A DNA stretch of 64,000 bases from Ardenticatenales bacterium. Its GTDB lineage: Bacteria > Chloroflexota > Anaerolineae > Promineifilales > Promineifilaceae. Under the pieces are notes generated by a model, which was given only the letters and a program-made list of their open reading frames with translations, searched no databases and was not told where the DNA came from. The stretch covers positions 12,389 through 76,388 of the forward strand of contig JACKBM010000027.1 in the NCBI GenBank assembly GCA_020634575.1. The letters are read 5' to 3'. The position numbers and the translations under genes are program-made. Below, one piece after another: positions 266 to 49,766 of the stretch (within the stretch, counting starts at the first letter, position 1; each line of letters starts with the position of its first letter).

Positions 266-3200
266 ATGACCAAACGGACCTTTTCTCTACTTGCGGTAAC
301 CATTTTTGTCATCCTTCTCTCCCTGCCTCTGGCTGGCCTGGCCGCCCGAAGCGACACTTCCAGTTCAGATGCCACCTCGCGCATTGTGGCCTTAAGCAGC
401 AGCGACGAACAATTTTCCTTTACTTTTGCCCCCGGCGAGATGTCCCTACAGAATGGACGCATTGCGGTTGACGGGCTGACCAGCCTTCTGAGAGCTCCGG
501 GCGCCCCAGAACTGCCGTATTATCAGACCCTGATCGCTTTGCCGCCTGGCGCCATAGCCACCGCTGAGCTGGTTATTAATGGTTCAGAACAGATCGAGCA
601 GGTCGGCTATCTCAACCCGGCGCCCCAGCAAAATGAGCTTGACATGGACCTCAGCAACCTGGCTGAAGTCGACATTGATATCGATGCGCTCGCCCTGGAA
701 GACAAGGCCGATGCCGCTATCTATGAGCTCGACGCTTATTACCCTGGCGAGCGTTTTACACTCTCCGAGCCGGCTTATTTGCGGGACCTGCGCGTCGTAT
801 CCCTCAAGCTTTTCCCCCTGAGCTACAACCCGGCCACGGGCACCGCCGCGCTGATCACGGAGATGACTGTGACGGTTCATTTCCAGGGCAGTGACATGGC
901 TGTGAATGGCCCCTTAACAAACCGCGATGACGGCTATTTGCAGGGGTTCGCCGGCAGCATCCTTAATTTTGAACAGGCCGGGCAGTGGCGACATACGCCG
1001 GCACCGGCCGGTGGCGCCTCCAGCTTCCCCACCGGCATCGATACCTACCGGATTGCAGTCACCGCCGACGGCATCCATGAGATCAGCTACGCGGACCTTC
1101 AGGCAGCCGGTATGGACGTCGACAACATCGATCCGGGTACGTTGGAGATGATGTATCGGGGCAACCCGGTCGCTTACCAGTTTGTTGGTAATGGCAACAA
1201 TGTTTTTGAAAGTGGGGAAGCCGTCCGCTTCTATGGCGAAATCTTTGATTCCAGCCGCTATGAGGAACTGTACGAGGATACCAACTTCTACTGGATCTGG
1301 GCCGGCGGCACGCCAACCCTGGCTGGCAATAGCAGCAGCGACAGTGGCCAACCAGCCGCAACCAGTTTCCGCGACACCGTCATCCTGGAAGCGCAAAATT
1401 GGTACTACACATCCCAGACCAACCATTGGGACGAATTCCCCAATGATCCGGATGCCTACTTCTATGACTATGTGACCTGGTCCGTAGAAAATTTCAGCAA
1501 GGCATACCCCATTAATCTGCCGGACCCAGATACCAGCGGCGCCAATGCCTCCATCAAGGTCGAATTCTTTTCGCTGGGACAGGTATTGCTGGGCCTCGTC
1601 GAGCAAGACCATGCCGCCACGGTCACCCTCAATAACGACCCCAATGTCGGGGTGTCGCCAACACCGTGGAAAGGACGCCGCAGCGAAAATACCTATGCTT
1701 TCATTCCGGCCTCGACCCTTCTGGATGGCACAAACAACGTCAACGTCGTGTTTGCTACCAATATTGATGATGGCGTAAACAGCACCACAGACCGCCTGCT
1801 CATCAATGACATCACGGTCGAGTACAACCGCTTCTTTGTGGCGGTGGATGATCAGCTCATTTTTGATCATGCTGGCCAACATGCGTTTACGGTCAGCGAG
1901 CTGGCAACCAACGTCCCGGCCGATCTGCACATATGGGAGATAACAAACCCACTGCTGCCGGTACGCCTGGACAGCACCAGCGCGTCGATCACCGGCAGCG
2001 GCCCGTATTCTGTCAGCTTCGGTGACAGTACGACTGGCGATATTGCCTATATCGTCGCCACAGAAGCGGCCATCATTGATGTGGCACCAGCCGACCTGAC
2101 TGAGTACAACGGGCCGGATCTGGATCCGGCCGGTGGCGCTGACTGGATTGCCATCAGCCACAGCACCATGCTGACAGCGGCCAACAACCTGGCAACACAC
2201 CGTAGCAACGCCCTTTACGGCGGCATGACCACGCAAGTCGTGGATGTTCTGGACATCTACAACCAATATGGCTATGGCTTTGCCCTGCCAACTGCCATTC
2301 AAGACTACCTGAGCCATGCAATGAATGATTGGCCCAGTGCCCCAGGCTACGTCGTCCTGTTTGGCGACGCCAATATCAACCCAAACGGCCATCCGACGCT
2401 GAATGGCACATCCTGGTGGATCGCCGATGAACCAAATTTCGTCGTCACGGACTTCAAATTTGTGGATCGCTTCCTGGGGCTGGTGCCTTCGGACCACATT
2501 TATAGCACCCTGATCGGCACAGACCTGATTCCTGATATCGCGGTCGGCCGGCTGGCGGCGCAGTCGAATGCAGAAGCGCAAGCGATGGTTGATAAAATCA
2601 TCTTCTACGAGCAGAACGGCCAAAGCGTAGCCGGCCTGGATGGACATGAAGAGGTACTCTTCGTGTCCGACAATGCGGATGAAGGCGGCGACTTCTGTCA
2701 GCAGAACATCCTGACTGCCTCCTACATTCCCGGCAGCTTCACGACCCATCCGCTCTGCCTGGACAACATGACAGTCGATGCCTTGAGACAGTCCATGAAG
2801 GACCTGATCAACAGCCCGAATGGCATCTCGCTGCTCAATTATCGCGGTCACGGCGCTGTCAATGCCTGGGCATCGAATTCGCCGTCCAATGCTATTCTCC
2901 ATGTCAATTCCCCATCGTTCTGGCTAAATCCGGGGAATCCCCCTGTCATCTTCAGCCTCGATTGTCTGGATGGCAACTTCGCCCAGCCAGGCTTCCCTGG
3001 TCTGGGTGAGACGGTGCTGGGTTATGATATGAAAGGTACTGCCGGTCACTGGTCTTCAACCGGGCTGGGCTTCTGGTTTGAGCATGAACTATTATCGATA
3101 GAAGTTTATGACGCCCTCTTCGGCCAGGGCATCGTCCGCTTTGGCGACGCCATTAACTTCTCCAAAACGCAATATTGGCAGGCCAGCCAGACCTTTGGCT

Positions 3201-3685
3201 ACGATGTCTCCGAGCTATACTCTTTTGTCCTTCAGGGCGACCCGGCAATGCATCTATTCCGGTCTGAAGTCTCCCTGGACAAGCAGGTGAACGCCACCAA
3301 CTTCCTGGTTGGCGACCCGGTCACCCTGACGCTGACAATTGAGAACAACGCCCTCTACCCGGCGCATGTCGTCATCACAGACACAATGCCGGTGGGGGTT
3401 ACTTACCTGGGCTACAGCGCCACGACCACGGCTACGCTGGTTGGCCCGGAACCGACCTTCGCGCTGAGCTGGGGGGCCGACATGACAGATACAGTACATG
3501 CCGGTATTCCGGCCGGTGCCCAGGCGACGCTGGAAATCTATGGCGTCGCCGCCGTAGCCGGCGCATATGACCATACAGCCCAGCTCCAGGTCACCGGTTT
3601 TGACCTGAATATGGCCAACAACCAGGCGACGGTCAGCTATGACATCATGCAGAAGATTCTCCTGCCCATCATCGTCCGGCGATGA
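266..3685 (+). CDS. Secreted gingipain-type (C25) cysteine peptidase with C-terminal DUF11 domain
   Basis: 1139 aa. Residues 1-27 form a signal peptide (hydrophobic core LLAVTIFVILLSLPLAG). Residues ~60-230 resemble the C25 propeptide (GAPELPYYQTLIALPPGA), and the C25 catalytic domain lies roughly at 640-990. The catalytic dyad is visible: His862 in RGHGAVNAW and Cys900 in SLDCLDGNF. A DUF11-type beta domain follows (~1003-1115, DKQVNATNFLVGDPVTL). The protein ends KILLPIIVRR, a motif type that also occurs inside the CAP protein at 25606-27402 (VYIPVIR). It is therefore an exported Cys endopeptidase, probably surface-attached; the substrate is unknown. A second C25 peptidase lies at 5093-7204. 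The family call is firm; activity is inferred from the dyad only. Confidence 0.88.
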   Translation: MTKRTFSLLAVTIFVILLSLPLAGLAARSDTSSSDATSRIVALSSSDEQFSFTFAPGEMSLQNGRIAVDGLTSLLRAPGAPELPYYQTLIALPPGAIATAELVINGSEQIEQVGYLNPAPQQNELDMDLSNLAEVDIDIDALALEDKADAAIYELDAYYPGERFTLSEPAYLRDLRVVSLKLFPLSYNPATGTAALITEMTVTVHFQGSDMAVNGPLTNRDDGYLQGFAGSILNFEQAGQWRHTPAPAGGASSFPTGIDTYRIAVTADGIHEISYADLQAAGMDVDNIDPGTLEMMYRGNPVAYQFVGNGNNVFESGEAVRFYGEIFDSSRYEELYEDTNFYWIWAGGTPTLAGNSSSDSGQPAATSFRDTVILEAQNWYYTSQTNHWDEFPNDPDAYFYDYVTWSVENFSKAYPINLPDPDTSGANASIKVEFFSLGQVLLGLVEQDHAATVTLNNDPNVGVSPTPWKGRRSENTYAFIPASTLLDGTNNVNVVFATNIDDGVNSTTDRLLINDITVEYNRFFVAVDDQLIFDHAGQHAFTVSELATNVPADLHIWEITNPLLPVRLDSTSASITGSGPYSVSFGDSTTGDIAYIVATEAAIIDVAPADLTEYNGPDLDPAGGADWIAISHSTMLTAANNLATHRSNALYGGMTTQVVDVLDIYNQYGYGFALPTAIQDYLSHAMNDWPSAPGYVVLFGDANINPNGHPTLNGTSWWIADEPNFVVTDFKFVDRFLGLVPSDHIYSTLIGTDLIPDIAVGRLAAQSNAEAQAMVDKIIFYEQNGQSVAGLDGHEEVLFVSDNADEGGDFCQQNILTASYIPGSFTTHPLCLDNMTVDALRQSMKDLINSPNGISLLNYRGHGAVNAWASNSPSNAILHVNSPSFWLNPGNPPVIFSLDCLDGNFAQPGFPGLGETVLGYDMKGTAGHWSSTGLGFWFEHELLSIEVYDALFGQGIVRFGDAINFSKTQYWQASQTFGYDVSELYSFVLQGDPAMHLFRSEVSLDKQVNATNFLVGDPVTLTLTIENNALYPAHVVITDTMPVGVTYLGYSATTTATLVGPEPTFALSWGADMTDTVHAGIPAGAQATLEIYGVAAVAGAYDHTAQLQVTGFDLNMANNQATVSYDIMQKILLPIIVRR

Positions 3686-16244: not shown

Positions 16245-17603
16245 CTAAGGGCGCCCGCCGAATAGAATTTCCCGCAAGAGCGCTCGTCCAATTTCCTGGG
16301 CGAGCGCTTCGTTTTGCACATCTTCAACCACGACGACGGCGACGAGCTGGGGCGCACCGGCCGGTGCCAGCGCCAAATACCAGCCATTCTCACTCTCCGC
16401 CGGTCCGGCCAAAGTGAGCACATGATGCTCAATGATCCCTTCTTGCCGGGGTAGCGCCGCCAAAACTTCCTGGGCCGCCAGCGCCGACACGGCGGTCAAA
16501 CCGGGTTGAAAATTCTCGGTCGCTAACTGCCAGGCGCCATTCTCATCCATGATCGAAGCAACGAGCTGAGGCCGCAACAACCGCCCTTCATTCGCCAGCG
16601 CACCAAACGCCAGCGCCATCTGCAACGGCGAAACCGTCAGCTCGCCCTGGCCCAGCAAAGAGCGCTCCATATCGGTGATCGTCAGCGGCCCGGCTGATTC
16701 CGTAGCCAGTGGTAAATCCGGCGGTGTGGTCAGCCCAAAGCCATCCAGGATCGCGACCAGCTCTTCGGGCCGCCAGCTACTCGCCAGCGTCAACAGCGGC
16801 GCCGGGCAACGGGCCTGCAAGCTCATGGTCCAGCTTTCGTCACCGGCCGGATCGCCCTCACAGGTCAAAACCTGGTCGCTCAGCTCGACCGGATCGCTCA
16901 TGTGGGGCAGCGCGTTGGCCAGGTTGATAATGCGTCTCTGCTCTACCGCCGCCGCATACAGCAGCGGCTGTAACACCAGACCTGGCTGGTAAAGTCCTTG
17001 CGTGGACCGGTTCAACAGCGGTGCCTCAGCATCCACTGCCAGGTCCTCAAACGCTGCATCCAGCTCATTCGGGTCAAAACCAGGGTGGCTCACCATCACC
17101 CGTACAGCCCCATCAGGCACCGACAGCAACAGAACAGCGCCACGCTGGTCACCCAACAACGCTTCGGCCAACAGCTGCCACTCGCTATCCAATGTCAGCC
17201 GCACATCCCGGCCCACCTGCGGCAAATGCAGCGCCTGCCGCCACAGCCGGTCCAGCTCGCTCTCATCGCTGCCCTCCAGGACGGCCGCCATACCCGACTC
17301 AATACCAGCGGCGCCATGGCGGAAACTATAATAGCCAACCGCCGGGCCAATATCGGCCAACGGGTAGCTGCGCTCAGTCCGGTCTGACGGCCCAATCGTT
17401 TCCGCCAGGATCACATTCTGGACATCAAAAATGGTACCCCGCTGGATACGCAGGGCAGCTTCCACAACGCGCGGGTTGTCATCGCGGACCGCAAGCTCCT
17501 CACGGCGCCAGACACCCCAGTAGAGCGATGTCACCGCCACCAGAAAAAAGAGCACCCAGAGTGCGCCGGCCAATTGGCGCAGCTGCTTGCCTTGCGGGTT
17601 CAC
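16245..17603 (-). CDS. Penicillin-binding-protein homologue lacking all transpeptidase active-site motifs (pseudo-PBP)
   Basis: 452 aa from the GTG at 17603, which overlaps the ftsW stop (GTGA). One N-terminal helix (LAGALWVLFFLVAVTSLYWG), a short dimerisation region with the family's RGTIFD segment and YYSFRHGAAGIE, then a transpeptidase-fold domain (about 140-452) still clearly related to FtsI/PbpA (LNRSTQGLYQPG; LLGQGELTVSPLQMALAFG). The catalytic motifs are gone: SxxK reads L209-V-L-Q212, SxN reads R265-C-P267 and KTG falls at AGPA (399-402). The reading frame is long and uninterrupted, so it looks like a retained non-catalytic protein rather than a decayed gene. It likely regulates or scaffolds the SEDS polymerase encoded just upstream (inference). 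Confidence 0.86.
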   Translation of the reverse strand: MNPQGKQLRQLAGALWVLFFLVAVTSLYWGVWRREELAVRDDNPRVVEAALRIQRGTIFDVQNVILAETIGPSDRTERSYPLADIGPAVGYYSFRHGAAGIESGMAAVLEGSDESELDRLWRQALHLPQVGRDVRLTLDSEWQLLAEALLGDQRGAVLLLSVPDGAVRVMVSHPGFDPNELDAAFEDLAVDAEAPLLNRSTQGLYQPGLVLQPLLYAAAVEQRRIINLANALPHMSDPVELSDQVLTCEGDPAGDESWTMSLQARCPAPLLTLASSWRPEELVAILDGFGLTTPPDLPLATESAGPLTITDMERSLLGQGELTVSPLQMALAFGALANEGRLLRPQLVASIMDENGAWQLATENFQPGLTAVSALAAQEVLAALPRQEGIIEHHVLTLAGPAESENGWYLALAPAGAPQLVAVVVVEDVQNEALAQEIGRALLREILFGGRP

Positions 17604-18925
17604 GAGTTGCTCCAGGGACCGGCCGATCCCTGCCCCTGATCGGTCGAAATATGCAGTACCAGCCCCGCCATCACGCCAGTCATCATCAGCGAGCTGCCCC
17701 CGTAGCTCACAAAGGGCAACGTGACCCCCGTCAGCGGCAACAGCTTGGTCACGCCGGCTGTGATCAACAACGTCTGCGCGCTCAGCAAGACGACAATGCC
17801 CGTCACCAGATACATACGGAATGGCCGGCGCGATTGAATGGCTATGCGCAGGCCCCGGTGGGCCAGGATGGCGAAACAGAGCAGGACGACCAGAGCCCCG
17901 ATCATCCCCCATTCCTCGGCGATAGCGGCGAAGGCAAAATCAGAATGGACTACGGGGATGTAATCGGGAAAGCCCTGTCCCACGCCGCTGCCGCTGATGC
18001 CCCCGGCACCCAGCGCATAAAGCGACTGCACGATCTGGAAAGATGCGCCGCTCGCCGCCGGCCAGGGGTTCAGCCAGCTATCCACACGCAGCGCGACCAC
18101 GGAAAAGGCCAGGTAGCCAATAACACTGGCCAGCAGCAGCAAACCAAAACCTCCGACCAGAAAGCGCCAATCGCCAGAAGCGACATATAACAAAGCCAGG
18201 AAAACAAAAAAGAAAAGCGTGGCCGCGCCCAGGTCCTGTTGCCAGATCAGCAAGACGATACAAAAACCCCACATCAGGAAAATTGGCGCCAGATAAGGGA
18301 TCACAGCGATAGCGCCTCGCTCCGGCCGGAACAACATCCCCCGCTCTTCAAAATAGCTCGCCAGGAAAATCAGCAACAGGAGCTTCAAGAGCTCGGATGG
18401 CTGGAAATAGACGCTGATCTGCGGCAGCAGCGGCAGCCAGAGTTCCGCGCCAAAGCGGGTTGGGTTGACCCCCAGCCACAGCGTCGCCGCCAGCAGGATC
18501 AGCCCCAAAAACAACCAGGTGTATCGGTAACGCCGCAGCAAGCGGAGATTGCGGGGCAAAATTGCCAGCGCCAGCATGATGGCAAAGCTCAGGGCCAGCC
18601 AGAGCAGCTGCCGCCAGAGAAAATTGACGGCCAGGCGGGCGATAAGCACCAGCCCCCAGCCGGTCAACAACCCGATGATGGGCAGCCAATAGGGGTCGTG
18701 ATAGTGGAGAAAACGGTTGAGGAGATAATGGGCGGCGAAGATGAGGAGGGTCCAACCGGCCGGTGCCCACAAAATGGACCAACCAATCGTCCCATCTGTC
18801 GCCAGCACCAGCGCCAGCGCATTGAGCCAGACAAAAAGGAGCGCCGGTACCAGGAGCTGGCGCTCACGCCGGCCCGCCTCATACCCCTGCTCGACAGACT
18901 CCCCCGGGAGCCGCTCCAGACTCAT
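17600..18925 (-). CDS. ftsW: FtsW/RodA/SpoVE (SEDS) peptidoglycan polymerase
   Basis: 441 aa, about ten membrane helices. SEDS landmarks: VYFQPSELLKLLLLIFLASY, the outer-loop HSDFAFAAIAEEWG with the essential catalytic Asp of the HxDF motif retained, and PLTGVTLPFVSYGGSSLMM near the C-terminus. It polymerises glycan strands from lipid II at the outer membrane face and normally acts with a class B PBP. Here the partner gene, overlapping by 4 bases, encodes a PBP homologue without active site. Whether it is the division (FtsW) or elongation (RodA) type cannot be decided from sequence alone; the symbol follows the family. Starts 3 bases after the mtnP stop. Confidence 0.9.
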   Translation of the reverse strand: MSLERLPGESVEQGYEAGRRERQLLVPALLFVWLNALALVLATDGTIGWSILWAPAGWTLLIFAAHYLLNRFLHYHDPYWLPIIGLLTGWGLVLIARLAVNFLWRQLLWLALSFAIMLALAILPRNLRLLRRYRYTWLFLGLILLAATLWLGVNPTRFGAELWLPLLPQISVYFQPSELLKLLLLIFLASYFEERGMLFRPERGAIAVIPYLAPIFLMWGFCIVLLIWQQDLGAATLFFFVFLALLYVASGDWRFLVGGFGLLLLASVIGYLAFSVVALRVDSWLNPWPAASGASFQIVQSLYALGAGGISGSGVGQGFPDYIPVVHSDFAFAAIAEEWGMIGALVVLLCFAILAHRGLRIAIQSRRPFRMYLVTGIVVLLSAQTLLITAGVTKLLPLTGVTLPFVSYGGSSLMMTGVMAGLVLHISTDQGQGSAGPWSNS

Positions 18926-18928
18926 AAA

Positions 18929-19798
18929 CTATTGGAGATATTTCTGCACCAGCAGCGCCACCTGTTGGCGCTTCTCCAGCTGGATACGAGCCCGGTCGGT
19001 GATAAGCGCGTCACGCAGGCCAGAGTGCGCCGGGAACTCACCCGCCCACGACGCCATCGTCGCCGCCATATGGCTGATGGCCGCCTGCGCGACGGCCGTG
19101 TTGGCCAGCAGCGTGCGCACAACCATTTCAACCGTTACCGGCGCCTCGCTTTCGTGCCAGACATCGTAATCGGTGACGTGCGCCATGCAGGCATAAGCGA
19201 TCTCCGCCTCGGCCGCCAGGTACGCTTCCGGGCTGGTGGTCATGCCAATCAGGCTCATCCCCCATTGGCGAAAAGTATGGGATTCTCCCTTGGTGCTGAA
19301 ACGCGGCCCTTCGATGGTGATAAAGGTACCCCCTTCGTGGACCGTCCCACCGGCAGTAGCCACAGCCTCTGCCACGACACGACTCAGTTCCGGCGAAAAC
19401 GGGTCCGCCACCGAGATATGGGCTACTAGCCCCTCACCAAAAAAGGAGCGGGCCCGGCCGCCCTTGGTGAAATCAAAAAGCTGGTCCGGCACGACGATGT
19501 GGCCTGGCGCATAATCCTCACGCAACGAACCACAGGCGCTCACCGCCACCAGGTAGCGTACGCCCAGGCTCTTCATGGCATAAATATTAGCCCGGTACGG
19601 CACCTCCGATGGTGTCAGGACATGCCCGCGTCCATGCCGCGGCAGAAAAGCCACCCGGCGCCCATGCAGGGTGCCAATCGTAACAGTGTCAGACGGCGCC
19701 CCAAAAGGCGTTTCTACCTGACGTTCTTCCACATCGGACAGACCGGTCATGTTATAAAGACCAGAGCCACCGATAATTCCCAGCTCGATTTCTGACAT
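18929..19798 (-). CDS. mtnP: S-methyl-5'-thioadenosine phosphorylase
   Basis: 289 aa, usual size. Family II nucleoside phosphorylase features: phosphate-binding GIIGGSGLYN, PRHGRGHVLTPSEVPYRANI, SACGSLREDYAPG and the purine-site DYDVWH near residue 220. It splits methylthioadenosine, from polyamine synthesis, into adenine and methylthioribose-1-phosphate in the cytosol. Position is odd: it lies inside a tight minus-strand operon (2 bases from the bactofilin fusion, 3 from ftsW), although it has no known link to cell shape. Confidence 0.93.
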   Translation of the reverse strand: MSEIELGIIGGSGLYNMTGLSDVEERQVETPFGAPSDTVTIGTLHGRRVAFLPRHGRGHVLTPSEVPYRANIYAMKSLGVRYLVAVSACGSLREDYAPGHIVVPDQLFDFTKGGRARSFFGEGLVAHISVADPFSPELSRVVAEAVATAGGTVHEGGTFITIEGPRFSTKGESHTFRQWGMSLIGMTTSPEAYLAAEAEIAYACMAHVTDYDVWHESEAPVTVEMVVRTLLANTAVAQAAISHMAATMASWAGEFPAHSGLRDALITDRARIQLEKRQQVALLVQKYLQ

Positions 19799-19800
19799 AA

Positions 19801-21696
19801 CTATTCCTGACGTCGGCGCCGCTCCATCCAGGCGGCTATTTCCTTCAACTGCTGTCGGTTTTTACTCAGTTCCGCATTCAACTGTTTGATCCGCTCGCCG
19901 GCGGCCTGCTTGACTCGCCCGAGCTCACCATTCACTTTCTCGTGCGCCTGGCGCAGCTCTTCGTAGGCCATTTCTCGCTCGACCAGATTGGTGTGCAGAT
20001 TAGCCAACTTCTGCCCCTGCGCCGCCAGATCTGCCGCGTAACGGCTGATCTCTTCTTCTTTGGCCTCCAGCAAGGAGCGGTTCAGCTTGAGTTCTTCCTC
20101 GCGCTCCCGCTGTCGCGCGACAATCTCACGATCAGCCGTCCGCTTTTCACGGAGTGATTGCACCTCCGCCTCTGCTACACTGAGCCGCTGTAAGGAGCGG
20201 CCCACGTTCTCTTTCCAGCTCTCAGCCGCTTCCCGGATCTTGTCCCGCTCCGCTTCCAGCGCAGCGATACGCTCCTCGCGCTGCCGGACAATCTTCTGAA
20301 TTTCTTCCAGCTCACTGCTGGTGTTCTGCCGCGTCGCTTCAGCCCACAAAAGACGCTCATGGAAATGCTGTGCCTTGTCCTGGGCCTCCAGCAATTCTGC
20401 TTCCAGCGCTTTTATCTGGGCCGAGCTCTCACTCAAAGCTGCCCGCAGAGTCACCAACTCCTGGGGCTGCTGCCGCATGGTCAGGCGCAGTTGCTCCAGC
20501 TCATCCACCACCTGCTCATGCACAGAGCGCAATGTTAGTAATTCGGCCTCGGCATGTTGGAGCCGGTTCAACTCACTCTGCGCGCTTTCCAGTCCGGCCG
20601 TCGCTGTATCTAGCTCCGCCTGCAACTGGTCGCGCTGTGCCTGTGTTTCCGTCAGCGTGGGCAAATATTGCGACAGCTCCATCTGTAATTTGCTGTGATC
20701 CGCCTCCAGCAACTCGATCTGACTGTTGGACTCTTCCGCCAGCTCCTGCCAGCGAATCAAAGCCTCATCCAGCTCTGACACGCGTTGCAGGCTGCCTTGC
20801 AAAGCCGTTTCCAGATTGGCCGTCCGCTCTGCCATGTTGCCGCTCTTTTCCATTTCGGCAGCGAGTTGCAAATTTAGCTCGCTCACCCCTTGGTTAGCTT
20901 CGCGCAGCAACGTCGTCTTCTCCGACAGCTCTTTCTCCAGACGCTCTACGTCAGCCTGACGCGCCTCCAAATCAACCAGTTGCTGCTTTAGCTGCTGCGC
21001 CTGGGCAGCCAGGGCCTCTTCCTGCTCTTCCAGGATGCTGTTGGCATCGTCCAGCTGCGTGCGGCTGGTCATGAGCTCGGCGCGGACAACCAGCAGCTCT
21101 TCCCGCAAGGCCACTGCCGTGGTCATTTCATCACCGGCCGCTTCCGCCAGACGCTCTTCAAAGGTCAGTTCCAGCTCGCGACGCGCAATCGCCGCGGCGG
21201 CGGCCTCTGCCTGCAGACGGCGCATAATGCCCAATCGGCCACTTTGCGTCTGCTCCAGGTCGCTCTCGGCAAACACGGCCGGCAACGCCACAGATTCCAT
21301 AAACTCAGGGATTTGTTCCTGGCTTTCGGCCGTCACTTCCTTGAGAGAGGCCGAGCCACTGTTCAACAGCTGATAGCCTTCCTCGCCAATGGTACTGAAC
21401 CAGCCATGCAGCTTACCCCCCGGTTCGATGGCCAGAGTCGTGGCATACACATCGCCCCAGACCTGACCGCTCGCCTTGATTTCTGTGGTTTGCGCGGCGA
21501 TGAGCCCCTTAAGCAGACCCGCCACGATCACTTCCGGCGCGTAAATGTTGCCGGCCACAGCGCCGGAATCCGCCACCAGAACATGTTGGTCGGTGCGAAT
21601 ATCACCCACATGATAGCCGGTGATTTCCAGCCCCCGCCGGCGGCGAAACAGCCCCGAGATCCGGCTCTCTTTTTTCTTTTTACCTGTACCAGTCAT
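19801..21696 (-). CDS. Bactofilin domain fused to a ~450-residue coiled coil
   Basis: 631 aa. A basic N-terminus (KKKKESRISGLFRRRRGLE) is followed by a bactofilin/polymer-forming beta-helix domain at ~18-105 (GYHVGDIRTDQHVLVADSG; VAGNIYAPEVIVAGLLKG; GQVWGDVYATTLAIEPGG). From ~165 to ~610 nearly every residue fits a long heptad coiled coil rich in E, Q, L, A and R; the tail ends WMERRRRQE. Typical bactofilins are 100-200 aa and lack this extension. Expected to form cytosolic filaments or membrane-associated scaffolds, with the coiled coil recruiting partners. It heads the operon that continues into mtnP, ftsW and the pseudo-PBP, which points to a role in shape or septum placement (inference). 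Confidence 0.85.
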   Translation of the reverse strand: MTGTGKKKKESRISGLFRRRRGLEITGYHVGDIRTDQHVLVADSGAVAGNIYAPEVIVAGLLKGLIAAQTTEIKASGQVWGDVYATTLAIEPGGKLHGWFSTIGEEGYQLLNSGSASLKEVTAESQEQIPEFMESVALPAVFAESDLEQTQSGRLGIMRRLQAEAAAAAIARRELELTFEERLAEAAGDEMTTAVALREELLVVRAELMTSRTQLDDANSILEEQEEALAAQAQQLKQQLVDLEARQADVERLEKELSEKTTLLREANQGVSELNLQLAAEMEKSGNMAERTANLETALQGSLQRVSELDEALIRWQELAEESNSQIELLEADHSKLQMELSQYLPTLTETQAQRDQLQAELDTATAGLESAQSELNRLQHAEAELLTLRSVHEQVVDELEQLRLTMRQQPQELVTLRAALSESSAQIKALEAELLEAQDKAQHFHERLLWAEATRQNTSSELEEIQKIVRQREERIAALEAERDKIREAAESWKENVGRSLQRLSVAEAEVQSLREKRTADREIVARQREREEELKLNRSLLEAKEEEISRYAADLAAQGQKLANLHTNLVEREMAYEELRQAHEKVNGELGRVKQAAGERIKQLNAELSKNRQQLKEIAAWMERRRRQE

Positions 21697-39561: not shown

Positions 39562-41826
39562 CTACTGGCCGCCGCGGCGAAAGATGATGCTGAGCCACTC
39601 GTAGGCTTCGATAGGCCGTTGATATTGGCCCAGAAAGTGGCCAGCCAGCCATAGCTCGACGTGTAAATGCGCATCTTCAGCCGGGCTAACCAGCGCGCCC
39701 GGCGAGCCGGTATTGCCCACCCGGCCGATAAACTGGCCCGCGCTCACCTGATTCCCCACAACCAGCCCGCCATCGACCTCGCTCAGGTGCGCGTAACGGG
39801 AGATCAAGCCATCGCCATGATCCAGCCAGACCTGACGCCCCCGGTAAAAATCCTCACCGGCATCTGAGGTGTAGCCCAGGCGCTGCGACTCCGACCGCCA
39901 GACAGCATAAGTGGCCTCATCACCCGCCACGTACTCACTGTCTATACGAAGAACGGTGCCGCCGGCAACCGCTTGCACAGCTGTACCAGCCGACCAATAC
40001 AGATCCATCCCTTCATGGATGCCCAGCCGATAATGGCGCGGCGCCCCCGGCAGGCGTAACAGCCGATCCGGGATGGGTGAGCCAGGAATTGGCAAACGTA
40101 GCCCACGCAGCGGATTAAGGGTCAGCTGATCAGCAGCCGGCGCTTCGGCCCACTCAACGTTGTGGTTCGCCAGCTCTGGCTGGCCCACAAAGTGGAAGCC
40201 ACTGGCCGTTGCCAGCACCAGCGTCTCGTTGTCCGCCCCGACTGCAATCGCCTGGATATGCTGGCCGCTGGCGAGGCGATAAATAGCCCGTAACGCACCG
40301 GTTTGCGGGTCATAGCCGAGAAGCCGATAACCGGCCTGATCCAGGACATAAAGGGTGTCCGCACTGAGCGCCAGCTGGCGTGGCCGCCAGGGCAGAAACG
40401 TCGGCTGGAAATCAGCCACTAGCGCCGTTTCCTGGTAAAGACGTAGTTGTCCCGTCAAACCGGTGGCGGTGAGAAGAAAACTACTGGTGGCATCGGCGGC
40501 ATGATCGACGGCGAATTCGTCCGGGGTGAGCCAGAGCAGTTGGGAACCGGCCGGTTCATACGCCTGCACAAAATGGTAGCTTCCCTCCAACAGTTGCCGG
40601 ACCGGGCCGCTACTGGTCAGCGCGAGATAGTATTGGGAGGAGATATCGCGGACCGGCCGGTCATACCATTCCACCGTCCAGGCTCCATCGAGCCCCAGAC
40701 GATAGACATCACCAGCCCGATCCAGCACCAGCAACCCAGCCTCAGCCAGCTGAATATCCAACGGCTCCAGCACCGTCACGTCCCCCACCCGATCACCCGG
40801 CCGCAAAACCGGCGTCATCAGGAGCTGGTTTTCCCTGGGCAGACGATAGACAATGCCTTGTTGCAGAAAGTAAATAGCCTCTGTACCCACGGCCAGGGCC
40901 ACCACATTGGTCAAGTCTGGTTGTTCAGGCGCCACAAGCCACGAAGCCATCCCGGCCGGCTCAAGCGCGTAAAGCTCGGCCCCGACCGCCAGCGCCTCGG
41001 CTTGCCGCAGATTCATCCCATCCACCGCCAAACTGCTCACCAGACTCGCCAGATCCGGCACCTCGCCATAAATAGATGCGGTTGCGGTACCGTAACTCGC
41101 CAGCAAATCAGGCAGAAAACCAGACGTCTGCTCAGCCACGATGGGGCGCCCCGTTGCCGCCGTTAACCAGGCAACCAACGCCGCGCTCGCCGGGCCGGCC
41201 TCACAGGGCGGTTGGATGGCGGCCGCGCCCGGCTCCAGGAAAAGCACAACCGGCAGGCCGCGCACGAGGTCATACAGCGTCAGCAAAGCGGGATCCTGAA
41301 ACGGATATTGGCCGCTGGCTGGATCAGGTCCCCAATCGTTGCCTGGGCAGGCATCCAGCGCCGTATCCGCATTGCGGCGCCGGTCAATGCCGCTCTGCTC
41401 AGGCGGCAGCGCCAGCAGCCAGACCGTCAGCGACGCCGGCCATTCCTGCGTGACCAATCGCTGCGCTGTCTGTTCTCCCCAGGTGGGATCGGCACTGCCG
41501 GCCAACCCGTTGACCAGCGCCAGCACCTGGGGCCCCTCGCCCAGACGCCAGCCGTGGACGGCCGTGCCATCGCTCAGGGGCCAGCTAAAGCGTGTGTAGG
41601 GTTCAGGCGTGGGGGTAGGTGATTGGGTTGGGCTGGGTAAGGGCCGGGGTGTGGGCGGCAGGGTAGCTAATGGGGCAAACGGCTCAGTAGCCGGGACGAC
41701 GATCGTCTGCGTCGCGACCGGCGCCGCGGTAGCTATTGCTGGGCTGGCGGCGGGGAGGGTTGGCCGCGGTTGCTGGCATGCTACCAGCAGCAGAACCAGC
41801 CCTAACCAGCAGCGAGTTCTAGACAT
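39562..41826 (-). CDS. Lipoprotein with degenerate carboxypeptidase-like region, propeller-like middle and M23 endopeptidase domain
   Basis: 754 aa. Lipobox LVAC follows MSRTRCWLGLVLLLVAC (start at 41826; the frame allows 41841). Residues ~55-250 recall an M14/DUF2817 zinc-carboxypeptidase scaffold (VLALVNGLAGSADPTWGEQT; RRNADTALDACPGNDWG), but the metal ligands are not evident. Residues ~290-590 contain repeated short beta units (ALSADTLYVLDQAGYRLLGY) that could be a propeller. The M23 domain (~610-750) keeps its zinc ligands: HEGMD and HLHVE, with YAHLSEVDGGLVVG between. Likely a surface peptidoglycan endopeptidase. Overlaps the GyrA-CTD gene by 8 bases. Confidence 0.83.
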   Translation of the reverse strand: MSRTRCWLGLVLLLVACQQPRPTLPAASPAIATAAPVATQTIVVPATEPFAPLATLPPTPRPLPSPTQSPTPTPEPYTRFSWPLSDGTAVHGWRLGEGPQVLALVNGLAGSADPTWGEQTAQRLVTQEWPASLTVWLLALPPEQSGIDRRRNADTALDACPGNDWGPDPASGQYPFQDPALLTLYDLVRGLPVVLFLEPGAAAIQPPCEAGPASAALVAWLTAATGRPIVAEQTSGFLPDLLASYGTATASIYGEVPDLASLVSSLAVDGMNLRQAEALAVGAELYALEPAGMASWLVAPEQPDLTNVVALAVGTEAIYFLQQGIVYRLPRENQLLMTPVLRPGDRVGDVTVLEPLDIQLAEAGLLVLDRAGDVYRLGLDGAWTVEWYDRPVRDISSQYYLALTSSGPVRQLLEGSYHFVQAYEPAGSQLLWLTPDEFAVDHAADATSSFLLTATGLTGQLRLYQETALVADFQPTFLPWRPRQLALSADTLYVLDQAGYRLLGYDPQTGALRAIYRLASGQHIQAIAVGADNETLVLATASGFHFVGQPELANHNVEWAEAPAADQLTLNPLRGLRLPIPGSPIPDRLLRLPGAPRHYRLGIHEGMDLYWSAGTAVQAVAGGTVLRIDSEYVAGDEATYAVWRSESQRLGYTSDAGEDFYRGRQVWLDHGDGLISRYAHLSEVDGGLVVGNQVSAGQFIGRVGNTGSPGALVSPAEDAHLHVELWLAGHFLGQYQRPIEAYEWLSIIFRRGGQ

Positions 41827-42847
41827 CAGCCGGCATGGCACAAACAGTCAGCGCCGTCACTTCATCGTGACGCAACGCCATACAGTTTACGCCCTGTACG
41901 ACCCCCTCCTTGGCTGGTATCTCGGCTGCCGCAAAGCGAATGATTTTGCTCTGCTCGGAAATGATGAAGACATCATCGTTCTGGTCAACGGCAACTGCGC
42001 CCACCAGCCGGTCGGTTTTCAGCGCCACCTTGCCACCGGCGCCAGGCGCCTTGTTCTGGCGGAAGCCGGCCATCAGACGGATGGTGCCCTTGCCGTCGGC
42101 GCCCAGGAGCAGCACACCGCCAGACTCACGGGTGGCGGCAATGGCCAGCACCTGATCGCCCTGGTCCACGCGCAGCCCCAGACGACCGCGCCGGCCCCCC
42201 AGTTGATGGGCGCTGAAGCGAATCGCCAATGCCTGTTTGGAGACCACAAACAGGTCGTCACCCTGTTTCAGCCAGCAAGCGGCGACCAACTCGCCACCTT
42301 CATTGGGATCGTGAAAGCCCATCCCCTGCATGAGCGAACTGCCCAGAAAGCTGGCCCGAATGGTGCGTACCCAGCCTCGTTCGCTGGCCAGGGCCACTTC
42401 CTCGCCGCCATTCTCCGGCAGCACGGCGACGATGCGCTCATTATTCAGCATCTTGAGCCGCTCACAGATATCCGTGCCCTTGCCGCGCACATCGGTTGCT
42501 GGCAGCTGAGCCACCGGCAAGCGATACACCCGGCCCCGATTACTCCAGACCAACAGCGCCGCTGACTCATCGGCGACAACCAGGAAACGGGGCGGATCCT
42601 CCGGCGAAGTCTCCATATCAAACACACCCATGCCGCCGCGCCGTTGCCGGCTGTAGAAATGCCGGGCCGTCCGCTTGGCGACACCCGCAGCGCTGATGGT
42701 GATGAGCTGCATGGTGGTGGGCGGTTCGCTGGGATCGGGGGCGGCTATGACCGGCCGGTCGGCCACCCCGGCCAGCAGCTGCTCCTCCAGAAACTCAATG
42801 TAAGCGATTACATCCGGGTCGATATCAGTTAAATCAGGACGTTCCAT
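41819..42847 (-). CDS. Freestanding DNA gyrase A C-terminal beta-pinwheel protein
   Basis: 342 aa. Residues ~45-335 consist of six GyrA-type blades (for example LVVADESAALLVWSNRGRVY; ALASERGWVRTIRASFLG; VLLLGADGKGTIRLMAGF). The GyrA box is present at residues 68-74 as QRRGGMG (consensus QRRGGKG or QRRGGRG). The breakage-reunion domain and catalytic Tyr are absent, and the N-terminal 40 residues (DPDVIAYIEFLEEQLL) are short and helical. It starts with its own promoter and is in frame throughout, so it is not a broken gyrA. Such domains wrap DNA; a role in DNA topology or as a gyrase/topo IV partner is inferred. Confidence 0.88.
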   Translation of the reverse strand: MERPDLTDIDPDVIAYIEFLEEQLLAGVADRPVIAAPDPSEPPTTMQLITISAAGVAKRTARHFYSRQRRGGMGVFDMETSPEDPPRFLVVADESAALLVWSNRGRVYRLPVAQLPATDVRGKGTDICERLKMLNNERIVAVLPENGGEEVALASERGWVRTIRASFLGSSLMQGMGFHDPNEGGELVAACWLKQGDDLFVVSKQALAIRFSAHQLGGRRGRLGLRVDQGDQVLAIAATRESGGVLLLGADGKGTIRLMAGFRQNKAPGAGGKVALKTDRLVGAVAVDQNDDVFIISEQSKIIRFAAAEIPAKEGVVQGVNCMALRHDEVTALTVCAMPADV

Positions 42848-47221: not shown

Positions 47222-47324
47222 TAGGGAAGCGCAATAAGGATGGTCACGAATGAGCGCAAAGTCTACTCTGGGCATTCGCGCTCATCCGCGACCAATCTTC
47301 CCGCTCACGCTGCTCCAAATCGTT

Positions 47325-47330
47325 TATACT
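47325..47330 (+). promoter_or_regulatory. Predicted -10 box, leaderless start of the acylase gene
   Basis: TATACT at 47325-47330 ends 6 bases before the ATG at 47337. No -35 box at the usual distance and no ribosome site. Upstream, ATGAGCGC (47249-47256) and GCGCTCAT (47278-47285) form an inverted repeat. Confidence 0.4.
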
Positions 47331-47336
47331 AGGACC

Positions 47337-49766
47337 ATGAAAAACACCTGGAAATTCCTCGGCCCGACGCTGGCAGCCACGGCGGCGGCGCTGGGTGCTG
47401 GTTATTATTGGCTGTTCCGCCGGCCGCTGCCGCAGACCAATGGCACCATCAGCCTGCATGGGCTGGACCGGCCGGTCACCATCTACCGCGACGCCTGGGG
47501 CATCCCCCACATCTACGCCGACAACATTCCCGACCTTTACTTCGCCCAGGGCTACGTCCACGCTCAGGACCGGCTCTGGCAAATGGACTTTTACCGCCGC
47601 CTGGCCGCCGGCCGCCTGGCCGAAATCCTTGGCCCGCGCGCCCTCGACCTCGACCGTTGGGTACGGACTCTCAGCCTGCGCCACGTCGCTGAGCAGGAAG
47701 TGCGCATGCTCAGCGACGAGACCCACAATCAGCTGGCTGCCTATGCCGCCGGCGTCAACGCCCGCATCGCGCAGGGGCGCCGGCCGGCTGAGTGCAAAAT
47801 TCTGGGCTACATTCCCGAACCCTGGCAAGCAGCCGACACCGTAGCCTGGAGCAAGATGATGGCCTGGAATCTCTCCGTCAACTGGGAGACGGAGCTGTTG
47901 CGGGCCCAGCTCATCGCCCGGCTCGGCCCGGAATTGGCGGCTGAGCTGGAACCGGGCCAATTTGACCGTTGGCCAACGGCGATACCGGCCGGTACCGACT
48001 TCAGCCACCTCGGTCAGGCCGCCCTCGACAAGGCCGAATCGGCCCGCCGCTGGCTGGGGCCGTCGCCTCACCAGGGGCTCGGCAGCAACAATTGGGCCGT
48101 CGCCCCCGAACGCACCGTCAGCGGCGACGCCATCTTCGCCAATGACATGCACCTGGGCATGAACGCCCCCGGCATCTGGTATGAAAACCACCTGGTTGCG
48201 CCCGATTACCAGGTCACCGGCGTCACCTTCCCCGGCCAGCCCGGCATCATCTCCGGTCACAACGGCCGCGTCGCCTGGGGCTACACCAACGGCTTTTCCG
48301 ATGTGCAGGACCTCTACCTCGAGGATCTGCGCCAGGTTGGCGAGAAACAGTTTCAATACCGGTTCAAGGATGAATGGCTGGATGCTGCCTGCCGCGAAGA
48401 ATGGATTCGCGTCAAGGGCGCCGACCCGGTCCGTGAGCTGGTCGTCGCCACCCACCACGGCCCCATCATCAACAAGCTCGTGAGCAATGAACTTCAGCGC
48501 GAGCCGTTCCATGACCAGCCCCTGGCGCTGCAATGGACGGCGCTAACGCCGGACCCGGCCATGCAGGAAACCTTGCTGGCAATGAACAGTGCTCGCAGCT
48601 GCGCCGCCATGTATGAAGCGCTGCGCGGCTGGGTTGTGCCGACACAAAACGTTGTCTACGCCGACGTCGAAGGCAACATCGCCCACACCCACGCCGGCCG
48701 CATCCCGGTGCGTGACGGTGAACCGGCCCTGGTGCCGGTGCCCGGCTGGGCAGGTGAGCATGAATGGATCGGCTACATCCCCTTTGACGAGCTGCCCCAT
48801 CAGCACAACCCGGAGAGCGGCTTCATCGGCACCGCCAACAACGCCGTCGCCGATGAGTATTACCCCTATTTTGTCAGTAAGGATTTCTCAACAGGCGACC
48901 GGGCCCAGCGTATTGCCGCCTGGCTAACAGGCCCCTACAAAGTCGATCTGATCACGATGCAGCAGATGCAGTATGACACCGTCTCCCAGACTGCGCTTGA
49001 GGTGGCGGCCCGGCTGGCAGTCCTGCCCACGGCAGACCCGTTTATCGGCTCGCTGCTGGCGGAGATGACCCTGTGGGATGGGGATTTACGCAAAGAAAGC
49101 CGGCCCGCGGCGGTCTACGAGGTGTTTATGCACCAGATGGCCCGTCTCGTCCTGGCGCCGAAGCTGGGCGACCTGCTGGACCGGGCCATGGGCCAGGGAC
49201 CAACCCCGATTCTGGCCTCAGATACGCTGTTCTCGGCCCGGGTGCGTGAATGGTTGGAGAATTTACTGGATAAGCCAGAATCGGTCTGGTTTGATCTGGG
49301 CCATGGCGAGAAACGGGATGATTGTATGCGGCTGGCCATGCAGGCGACGGTTGCGTATTTGCGCCAGGAGTTGGGCGAGGATCCGGCCGGTTGGCAATGG
49401 GGCGCCCTGCACAAGCTCCATTTTGCCCATTCCCTGGGCACCCAACCGCCGCTCGACCGCATCTTCAACCGCGGCCCCTATCCCTATCCCGGCGACGCGA
49501 CCACCCTACACGCATCCGGCGGCAGTTCCAGCGACCTGCGCGCGACCGGCCGGATCTCAGCGCCTTTCCGCTTCATCGTCGATATGGGGCGGGTCGAGCG
49601 GGCCTGGGGCCAGCTCGTGCCTGGCCAATCCGGCCACCCGGCCAGCCGCCACTACGCCGACCAGATCAAGGACCACCTCACCGGCTTCTACCACCCGATG
49701 TGGTTCACCCTGGCCGACGTCGAGAGCAACGCCGTCGACATCCTGCAGCTACAACCCCGCTTTTAG
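47337..49766 (+). CDS. Penicillin-acylase family (S45) Ntn-hydrolase
   Basis: 809 aa from the ATG at 47337. An N-terminal helix (GPTLAATAAALGAGYYWLF) acts as signal or anchor. Alpha-chain region: YRDAWGIPHIYADNIPDLYF and GYVHAQDRLWQMDFYRRLAA. The nucleophile is Ser250 in GLGSNNWAVAP, where autocleavage would release the beta chain; later family motifs are NDMHLGMNAPGIWYENHL, ISGHNGRVAWGYTNGFSDVQ and the C-terminal ASGGSSSDLRATG. Members cleave amide bonds of beta-lactams, acyl-homoserine lactones or other acyl amides; the true substrate is unknown. Acts outside the membrane. Confidence 0.9.
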   Translation: MKNTWKFLGPTLAATAAALGAGYYWLFRRPLPQTNGTISLHGLDRPVTIYRDAWGIPHIYADNIPDLYFAQGYVHAQDRLWQMDFYRRLAAGRLAEILGPRALDLDRWVRTLSLRHVAEQEVRMLSDETHNQLAAYAAGVNARIAQGRRPAECKILGYIPEPWQAADTVAWSKMMAWNLSVNWETELLRAQLIARLGPELAAELEPGQFDRWPTAIPAGTDFSHLGQAALDKAESARRWLGPSPHQGLGSNNWAVAPERTVSGDAIFANDMHLGMNAPGIWYENHLVAPDYQVTGVTFPGQPGIISGHNGRVAWGYTNGFSDVQDLYLEDLRQVGEKQFQYRFKDEWLDAACREEWIRVKGADPVRELVVATHHGPIINKLVSNELQREPFHDQPLALQWTALTPDPAMQETLLAMNSARSCAAMYEALRGWVVPTQNVVYADVEGNIAHTHAGRIPVRDGEPALVPVPGWAGEHEWIGYIPFDELPHQHNPESGFIGTANNAVADEYYPYFVSKDFSTGDRAQRIAAWLTGPYKVDLITMQQMQYDTVSQTALEVAARLAVLPTADPFIGSLLAEMTLWDGDLRKESRPAAVYEVFMHQMARLVLAPKLGDLLDRAMGQGPTPILASDTLFSARVREWLENLLDKPESVWFDLGHGEKRDDCMRLAMQATVAYLRQELGEDPAGWQWGALHKLHFAHSLGTQPPLDRIFNRGPYPYPGDATTLHASGGSSSDLRATGRISAPFRFIVDMGRVERAWGQLVPGQSGHPASRHYADQIKDHLTGFYHPMWFTLADVESNAVDILQLQPRF

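Follow-up and report, generated by a model that had tools for sequence, protein, structure and literature searches.

Overlapping genes for a SEDS protein and a PbpA-like protein

We analyzed a 64,000-nucleotide stretch of the genome of an Ardenticatenales bacterium of the family Promineifilaceae, phylum Chloroflexota (contig JACKBM010000027.1, positions 12,389 to 76,388 of the forward strand; hereafter the window, with coordinates counted from its first nucleotide). Two genes on its reverse strand overlap, one encoding a SEDS-family glycosyltransferase and the other a homolog of class B penicillin-binding proteins (PBPs) that has lost its catalytic motifs and that we refer to as pseudo-PBP. 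Their features are as follows.

16245..17603 (-): pseudo-PBP, a PbpA-like class B PBP homolog of 452 amino acids with a GTG start and lost catalytic motifs
17600..18925 (-): SEDS-family glycosyltransferase of 441 amino acids, with HSDF and its Asp329 kept
17600..17603 (-): 4-bp GTGA overlap of the SEDS stop (TGA) and the pseudo-PBP start
17214..17504 (-): linker and pedestal of pseudo-PBP (residues 34-130), where conservation is highest among the three regions compared
16968..16979 (-): SxxK position, residues 209-212, which read LVLQ (Ser to Leu, Lys to Gln); coordinates derived from residue numbers
16803..16811 (-): SxN position, residues 265-267, which read RCP
16404..16412 (-): KTG position, residues 398-400, which read LAG

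Translation of 16245-17603 on the reverse strand yields 452 residues. The frame is open, as a preliminary description of this DNA had stated, and encodes a full-length class B PBP homolog. We took the GTG at 17603 as its start because a near-identical database protein from an Anaerolineales bacterium (P0002) has the corresponding length. An ATG at 17912, proposed in a mechanical list of open reading frames, was rejected as the start, as it lies inside the SEDS gene and the length of P0002 fits the GTG. The previously described overlap with the polymerase gene is thus the 4-bp GTGA, an arrangement that suggests translational coupling of the two genes.

Pseudo-PBP has the fold and domains of a class B PBP of the PbpA branch. 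It matches the transpeptidase domain PF00905 (75.1 bits; cut-off 22.1) and the PbpA dimerization domain PF21922, the PBP_dimer_2 pedestal (33 bits; cut-off 27). Its predicted structure (pLDDT 94) has a single N-terminal transmembrane helix at residues 3-32 and resembles crystallized PbpA, and PbpA structures ranked first in the structure comparison, followed closely by those of PBP2 and PBP3. The PbpA structures compared were those of Mycobacterium tuberculosis PBPA (3un7, 3lo7 and 3upo), Eggerthella lenta (4mnr) and Atopobium parvulum (4jbf and 4n1x). According to the model, the fold of the transpeptidase domain is kept despite the lost motifs, in agreement with the earlier claim that a PBP fold persists around them.

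Loss of the three transpeptidase motifs

The motif registers were set by aligning pseudo-PBP to solved PbpA chains with HMMER. In this alignment L209 and Q212 lie opposite the Ser and Lys of SxxK, R265 and P267 opposite the Ser and Asn of SxN, and L398-A399-G400 opposite KTG, with residues 398-403 reading LAGPAE. A joint MAFFT alignment with the control PbpAs described below gave the same registers for SxxK and SxN and placed residues 398-400 opposite the three residues that precede KTG; in neither register does pseudo-PBP contain KTG. The preliminary description had read LVLQ at 209-212 and RCP at 265-267, and both readings are borne out by translation and by the alignment to PbpA chains. It was also right that KTG is lost, although its coordinates (AGPA at 399-402) fall one residue late. 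It had proposed mapping the motifs onto PbpA homologs and re-reading the DNA for intact ones: in the alignment all three are lost, and the re-read DNA gives LVLQ, RCP and LAG at their positions.

Active PbpA proteins have SxxK, SxN and KTG and, according to the titles of their PDB entries, form acyl-enzymes with beta-lactams, whereas pseudo-PBP has lost all three motifs. By its sequence it lacks the three motifs of an active D,D-transpeptidase. Databases nevertheless label such dead proteins transpeptidases or peptidoglycan glycosyltransferases, which is a warning for annotation, and we did not use names such as "peptidoglycan glycosyltransferase" as evidence.

Conservation of the loss among homologs

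A search of 5.8 billion proteins with the window protein as query returned 494 homologs, of which we examined the best 120. A second search used P0058, the first-branching member in a quick tree (support for the remainder as a group was only 0.50). It returned 293 homologs, of which the best 120 were examined and 51 were new, for a combined set of 171 to which the counts below refer. As a search for active relatives or transitional forms, this second query yielded only further dead members among its best 120.

None of the 171 homologs examined has Ser at position 209 or Lys at 212, none has Asn at 267, and none has Lys at 398. The old motifs instead carry a replacement consensus, PG-[LM]xLQP ... 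CP ... L[SA]GP. Position 212 is Gln in 156 homologs (Glu, Ala, His, Gly, Leu and Tyr also occur) and is followed by Pro213 in every one; positions 267 and 401 are each Pro in 167, position 398 is Leu in 160, and position 399 is always Ser, Ala or Thr. A single K[TS]G was found within the last 90 residues of any homolog, at residue 369 of P0270, where it lies upstream and in a different context. Because Ser209 and Lys212 are absent from all 171, chance is not a fair explanation of the motif loss. The loss is common to the whole set and accompanied by a new consensus, so that the sequences appear to describe a conserved family and not a gene in decay. The preliminary description had suggested a look for the same substitutions in related genomes; the motif loss is shared by all the homologs examined.

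All named homologs examined belong to Chloroflexota (labeled Chloroflexi, Anaerolineae, Anaerolineales, Anaerolineaceae, Ardenticatenaceae, Promineifilaceae or Leptofilum), save one assembly with a name starting Candidatus Sulfomarinibac; the NCBI taxonomy places Leptofilum and Promineifilaceae within the class Ardenticatenia. A plasmid search returned 472 records that encode distant PBPs, but in none of them did the match reach 80% coverage of the query. Scans of IMG/VR gave one short match (L006), on a contig resembling an unrelated phage, and none with an alignment as query. A scan of genome contigs with pseudo-PBP found only three loci, all from uncultured Lachnospiraceae, one of which (L001), when translated, has intact motifs.

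The SEDS protein and its link to pseudo-PBP

The SEDS protein matches PF01098 with 241.5 bits (cut-off 26.4). It keeps the Asp of the HxDF motif, as the preliminary description had noted, in the form HSDF with Asp329, which we take to be the catalytic Asp and which is kept in 120 of 120 SEDS homologs (the best 120 of 5781). The polymerase is thus intact, as claimed. Its earlier label ftsW is premature, since the protein falls below the NCBI named-family cut-offs for both FtsW (250.8 against 337.5) and RodA (204 against 336.7); we call the polymerase only a SEDS protein.

We gauged linkage of the two genes in homologs by equal size of the longest contig, comparing the 171 pseudo-PBP matches with 120 SEDS matches. 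By this indirect measure, 28 of the 171 share a longest-contig size with a SEDS match, against a mean of 1.09 and a maximum of 5 when sizes were shifted. One of these pairs (2458 bases, from two different sources) was rejected because both genes could not fit in that length. The other 27 are plausible shared contigs, and in each of them the two matches come from the same source collection. Across these 27 pairs, the pairwise distances of pseudo-PBP and of the SEDS protein correlate with r = 0.77, whereas the best of 1000 permutations reached 0.36. The correlation shows co-inheritance of the two proteins, but it follows from shared descent too. Adjacency and co-inheritance, the marks of a cognate pair of SEDS protein and class B PBP, are thus both found here, with linkage in the homologs seen only indirectly.

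In P0257, the C-terminal part of a SEDS protein, including HSDF, and pseudo-PBP occupy one open reading frame, a fusion that is either genuine or produced by misassembly.

Constraint is shifted toward the pedestal

The pattern of conservation was compared with that of control PbpAs, for which 100 genomes of the family of L001, an uncultured Lachnospiraceae bacterium, were searched and the 30 best loci fetched. After L007, the query's own gene, was dropped, the query and 29 proteins were aligned (n = 30). These controls were picked for similarity to one query and their activity is assumed from their motifs: SxxK, SCN, KTG and a pair of cysteines are present in 30 of 30.

Among pseudo-PBP family members (n = 120), mean pairwise identity is 0.580 in the linker and pedestal and 0.485 in the transpeptidase domain, a ratio of 1.20 (bootstrap 95% 1.18-1.21). 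In the controls the corresponding values are 0.465 and 0.540, a ratio of 0.86 (bootstrap 95% 0.83-0.90). The order of conservation is therefore reversed, the pedestal exceeding the transpeptidase domain in the dead family and the opposite holding in the controls, while the transmembrane helix has the lowest identity in both (0.369 and 0.307; the estimate for the dead family is from 60 of the 120 proteins). Consistent with this, entropy is below 0.3 bits at 29% of pedestal positions and 12% of transpeptidase-domain positions in the dead family. Stronger constraint on the pedestal is what would be expected of an activator or scaffold, and that expectation is supported by these alignments.

The former active site is itself under some constraint. 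The seven former catalytic positions have a mean entropy of 0.84 bits, compared with 1.75 for the whole transpeptidase domain, and only 1.1% of random seven-position sets are as conserved. Position 265 is an exception among them and varies freely (entropy 2.56), and Gly400 is a residue inherited from KTG. Near the old motifs, Y205, Q206, P207, G208, P213, G318, Q319, P326, Q328 and W408 have entropy of about zero or are invariant.

Two cysteines, Cys248 (16860-16862) and Cys266 (16806-16808), are invariant in the 171 dead homologs and in the 30 controls, where their counterparts are positions 260 and 279 of the L001 protein. The pair, of which Cys266 lies inside the former SxN motif, is possibly an inherited disulfide.

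Genomic neighborhood

Two further genes lie upstream of the SEDS gene on the same strand.

18929..19798 (-): gene of the phosphorylase superfamily (PNP_UDP_1), with a 3-bp gap to the SEDS gene
19801..21696 (-): gene for a bactofilin-domain protein that has a long C-terminal extension, next upstream of the phosphorylase gene after a 2-bp gap

From this spacing, the bactofilin, phosphorylase, SEDS and pseudo-PBP genes (16245-21696, one strand) form a probable operon which, if real, joins a cytoskeletal protein to a wall synthase. Elsewhere in the window are genes for a protein with an M23 peptidase domain (39562-41841), a penicillin-amidase family protein (47250-49766) and a large protein that combines C25-family peptidase, C25 propeptide and DUF11 domains (266-3685).

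Discussion

SEDS proteins are reported to need cognate class B PBPs for peptidoglycan synthesis (PMC8078798), and in the RodA-PBP2 complex the polymerase is switched on when PBP2 opens (PMC10257715). The likeness to RodA-PBP2 of Thermus thermophilus and Escherichia coli is that a SEDS protein is paired with a class B PBP, whose opening controls polymerization in those systems (PMC10257715). The difference is that PBP2 is also an active transpeptidase, so polymerization and cross-linking are coupled there. Precedents for a dead PBP are a catalytically inactive Bacillus subtilis PBP2B, which supports division provided that PBP3 is present (PMC5656894), and an inactive Clostridioides difficile SpoVD, which depends on SpoVE (PMC12713402). 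In these mutants (PBP2B S309A and SpoVD S311A) a transpeptidase-dead PBP fully or partly supports a SEDS-based machine, but each is a single engineered change in one species, whereas pseudo-PBP represents a natural, family-wide state with a new consensus. A natural lineage-wide dead class B PBP was not found in the open-access literature, covered by titles and the beginnings of abstracts, with subscription papers mostly outside it. Judged by its sequences, the pseudo-PBP family forms a natural branch of pseudoenzymes within the PbpA-like class B PBPs, the precedents found being laboratory mutants.

We think it likely that pseudo-PBP has been conserved as a pseudoenzyme, serving its SEDS polymerase as an activator or scaffold, and that cross-linking comes from other enzymes; binding, activation and outside cross-linking are inferred. 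Pseudo-PBP would be a membrane-anchored protein with a normally folded transpeptidase domain that lacks the residues to form an acyl-enzyme. It would most likely bind the SEDS polymerase through its transmembrane helix and pedestal and would switch on or position glycan polymerization by this partner. Cross-links in the new glycan would then be made by enzymes such as L,D-transpeptidases, class A PBPs or a further class B PBP. The core of what the preliminary description proposed, a motif-less class B PBP beside an intact SEDS protein, survives and gains the conservation as a family and the pedestal constraint; its KTG coordinates are one residue off and the ftsW name is premature.

Several observations weigh against this interpretation. 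C. difficile asymmetric division still partly needs SpoVD catalysis (PMC12713402), and transpeptidase activity is essential in Staphylococcus aureus PBP1 (PMC9426605) and in pneumococcal PBP2X (as cited in PMC5656894). Remnants of the motifs persist in the homologs, with Gly400 of KTG in 170 of 171, Thr399 in 4 and Ser265 in 5. The distance correlation between the two proteins is partly expected from shared organismal descent, and the controls are a different and less diverse sample.

One alternative, compatible with activation or scaffolding rather than exclusive of it, is that the dead transpeptidase domain has taken on a new role in which its cleft non-covalently holds a stem peptide or other ligand, or docks a wall enzyme, and so senses or guides synthesis. 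We regard this as possible but would not favor it: the former catalytic positions show some constraint and their flanks are nearly invariant, yet these cleft residues may serve folding alone, Gly400 is a legacy of KTG, position 265 is unconstrained, and the pedestal is more conserved than the domain in question. It is unlikely that the active class B PBP partner of the SEDS protein is encoded elsewhere and that pseudo-PBP is a competing inhibitor or place-holder. More than one class B PBP does serve a single division apparatus in B. subtilis and C. difficile (PMC5656894, PMC12713402), but the gene overlap, the co-inheritance and the one fused reading frame favor pseudo-PBP as the main partner.

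The remaining alternatives fare worse. That pseudo-PBP is still an enzyme, using another nucleophile or mechanism in the same cleft, might be argued from Cys248, Cys266, Ser93 and Ser172, each conserved in more than 80% of homologs. We consider it very improbable: Lys does not exceed 16% of homologs in any alignment column, position 212 tolerates the range of residues given above, and the cysteines look inherited and structural because they have counterparts in all 30 controls. Least credible of all is that pseudo-PBP is a relic, neutral or in decay, that persists through its linkage to the SEDS gene. The absence of all three motifs and the lower conservation of the transpeptidase domain relative to the pedestal are what decay could produce, but the shared loss and replacement consensus, the invariant cysteines, the open frame and the confidently predicted fold argue against it.

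Of 244 archaellated Chloroflexota, 235 are reported to have peptidoglycan genes, and a peptidoglycan-like layer was seen at the poles of Litorilinea aerophila (PMC13319060). Because of these gene counts and this polar layer, a wall is likely present in many members of the phylum. A more tentative proposal, which we put forward with less than even confidence, is that in a broad Chloroflexota lineage comprising Promineifilaceae, Ardenticatenaceae and relatives, transpeptidation was lost from the cognate PBP in a common ancestor, after which the protein persisted purely as a regulatory subunit, its old active site remodeled into a non-covalent sensor or docking site. In normal growth, polymerization would then be uncoupled from cross-linking by a class B PBP, and the partner of the polymerase could not be acylated by beta-lactams.

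In the literature consulted, the roles of class B PBPs as cross-linker and as switch have so far been separated by engineered mutants and antibiotics. A natural family without the motifs offers a clean subject for this question, as any effect on the polymerase should be non-catalytic. If our interpretation is true, evolution can undo the coupling of polymerization and cross-linking that is widely kept in wall synthesis.
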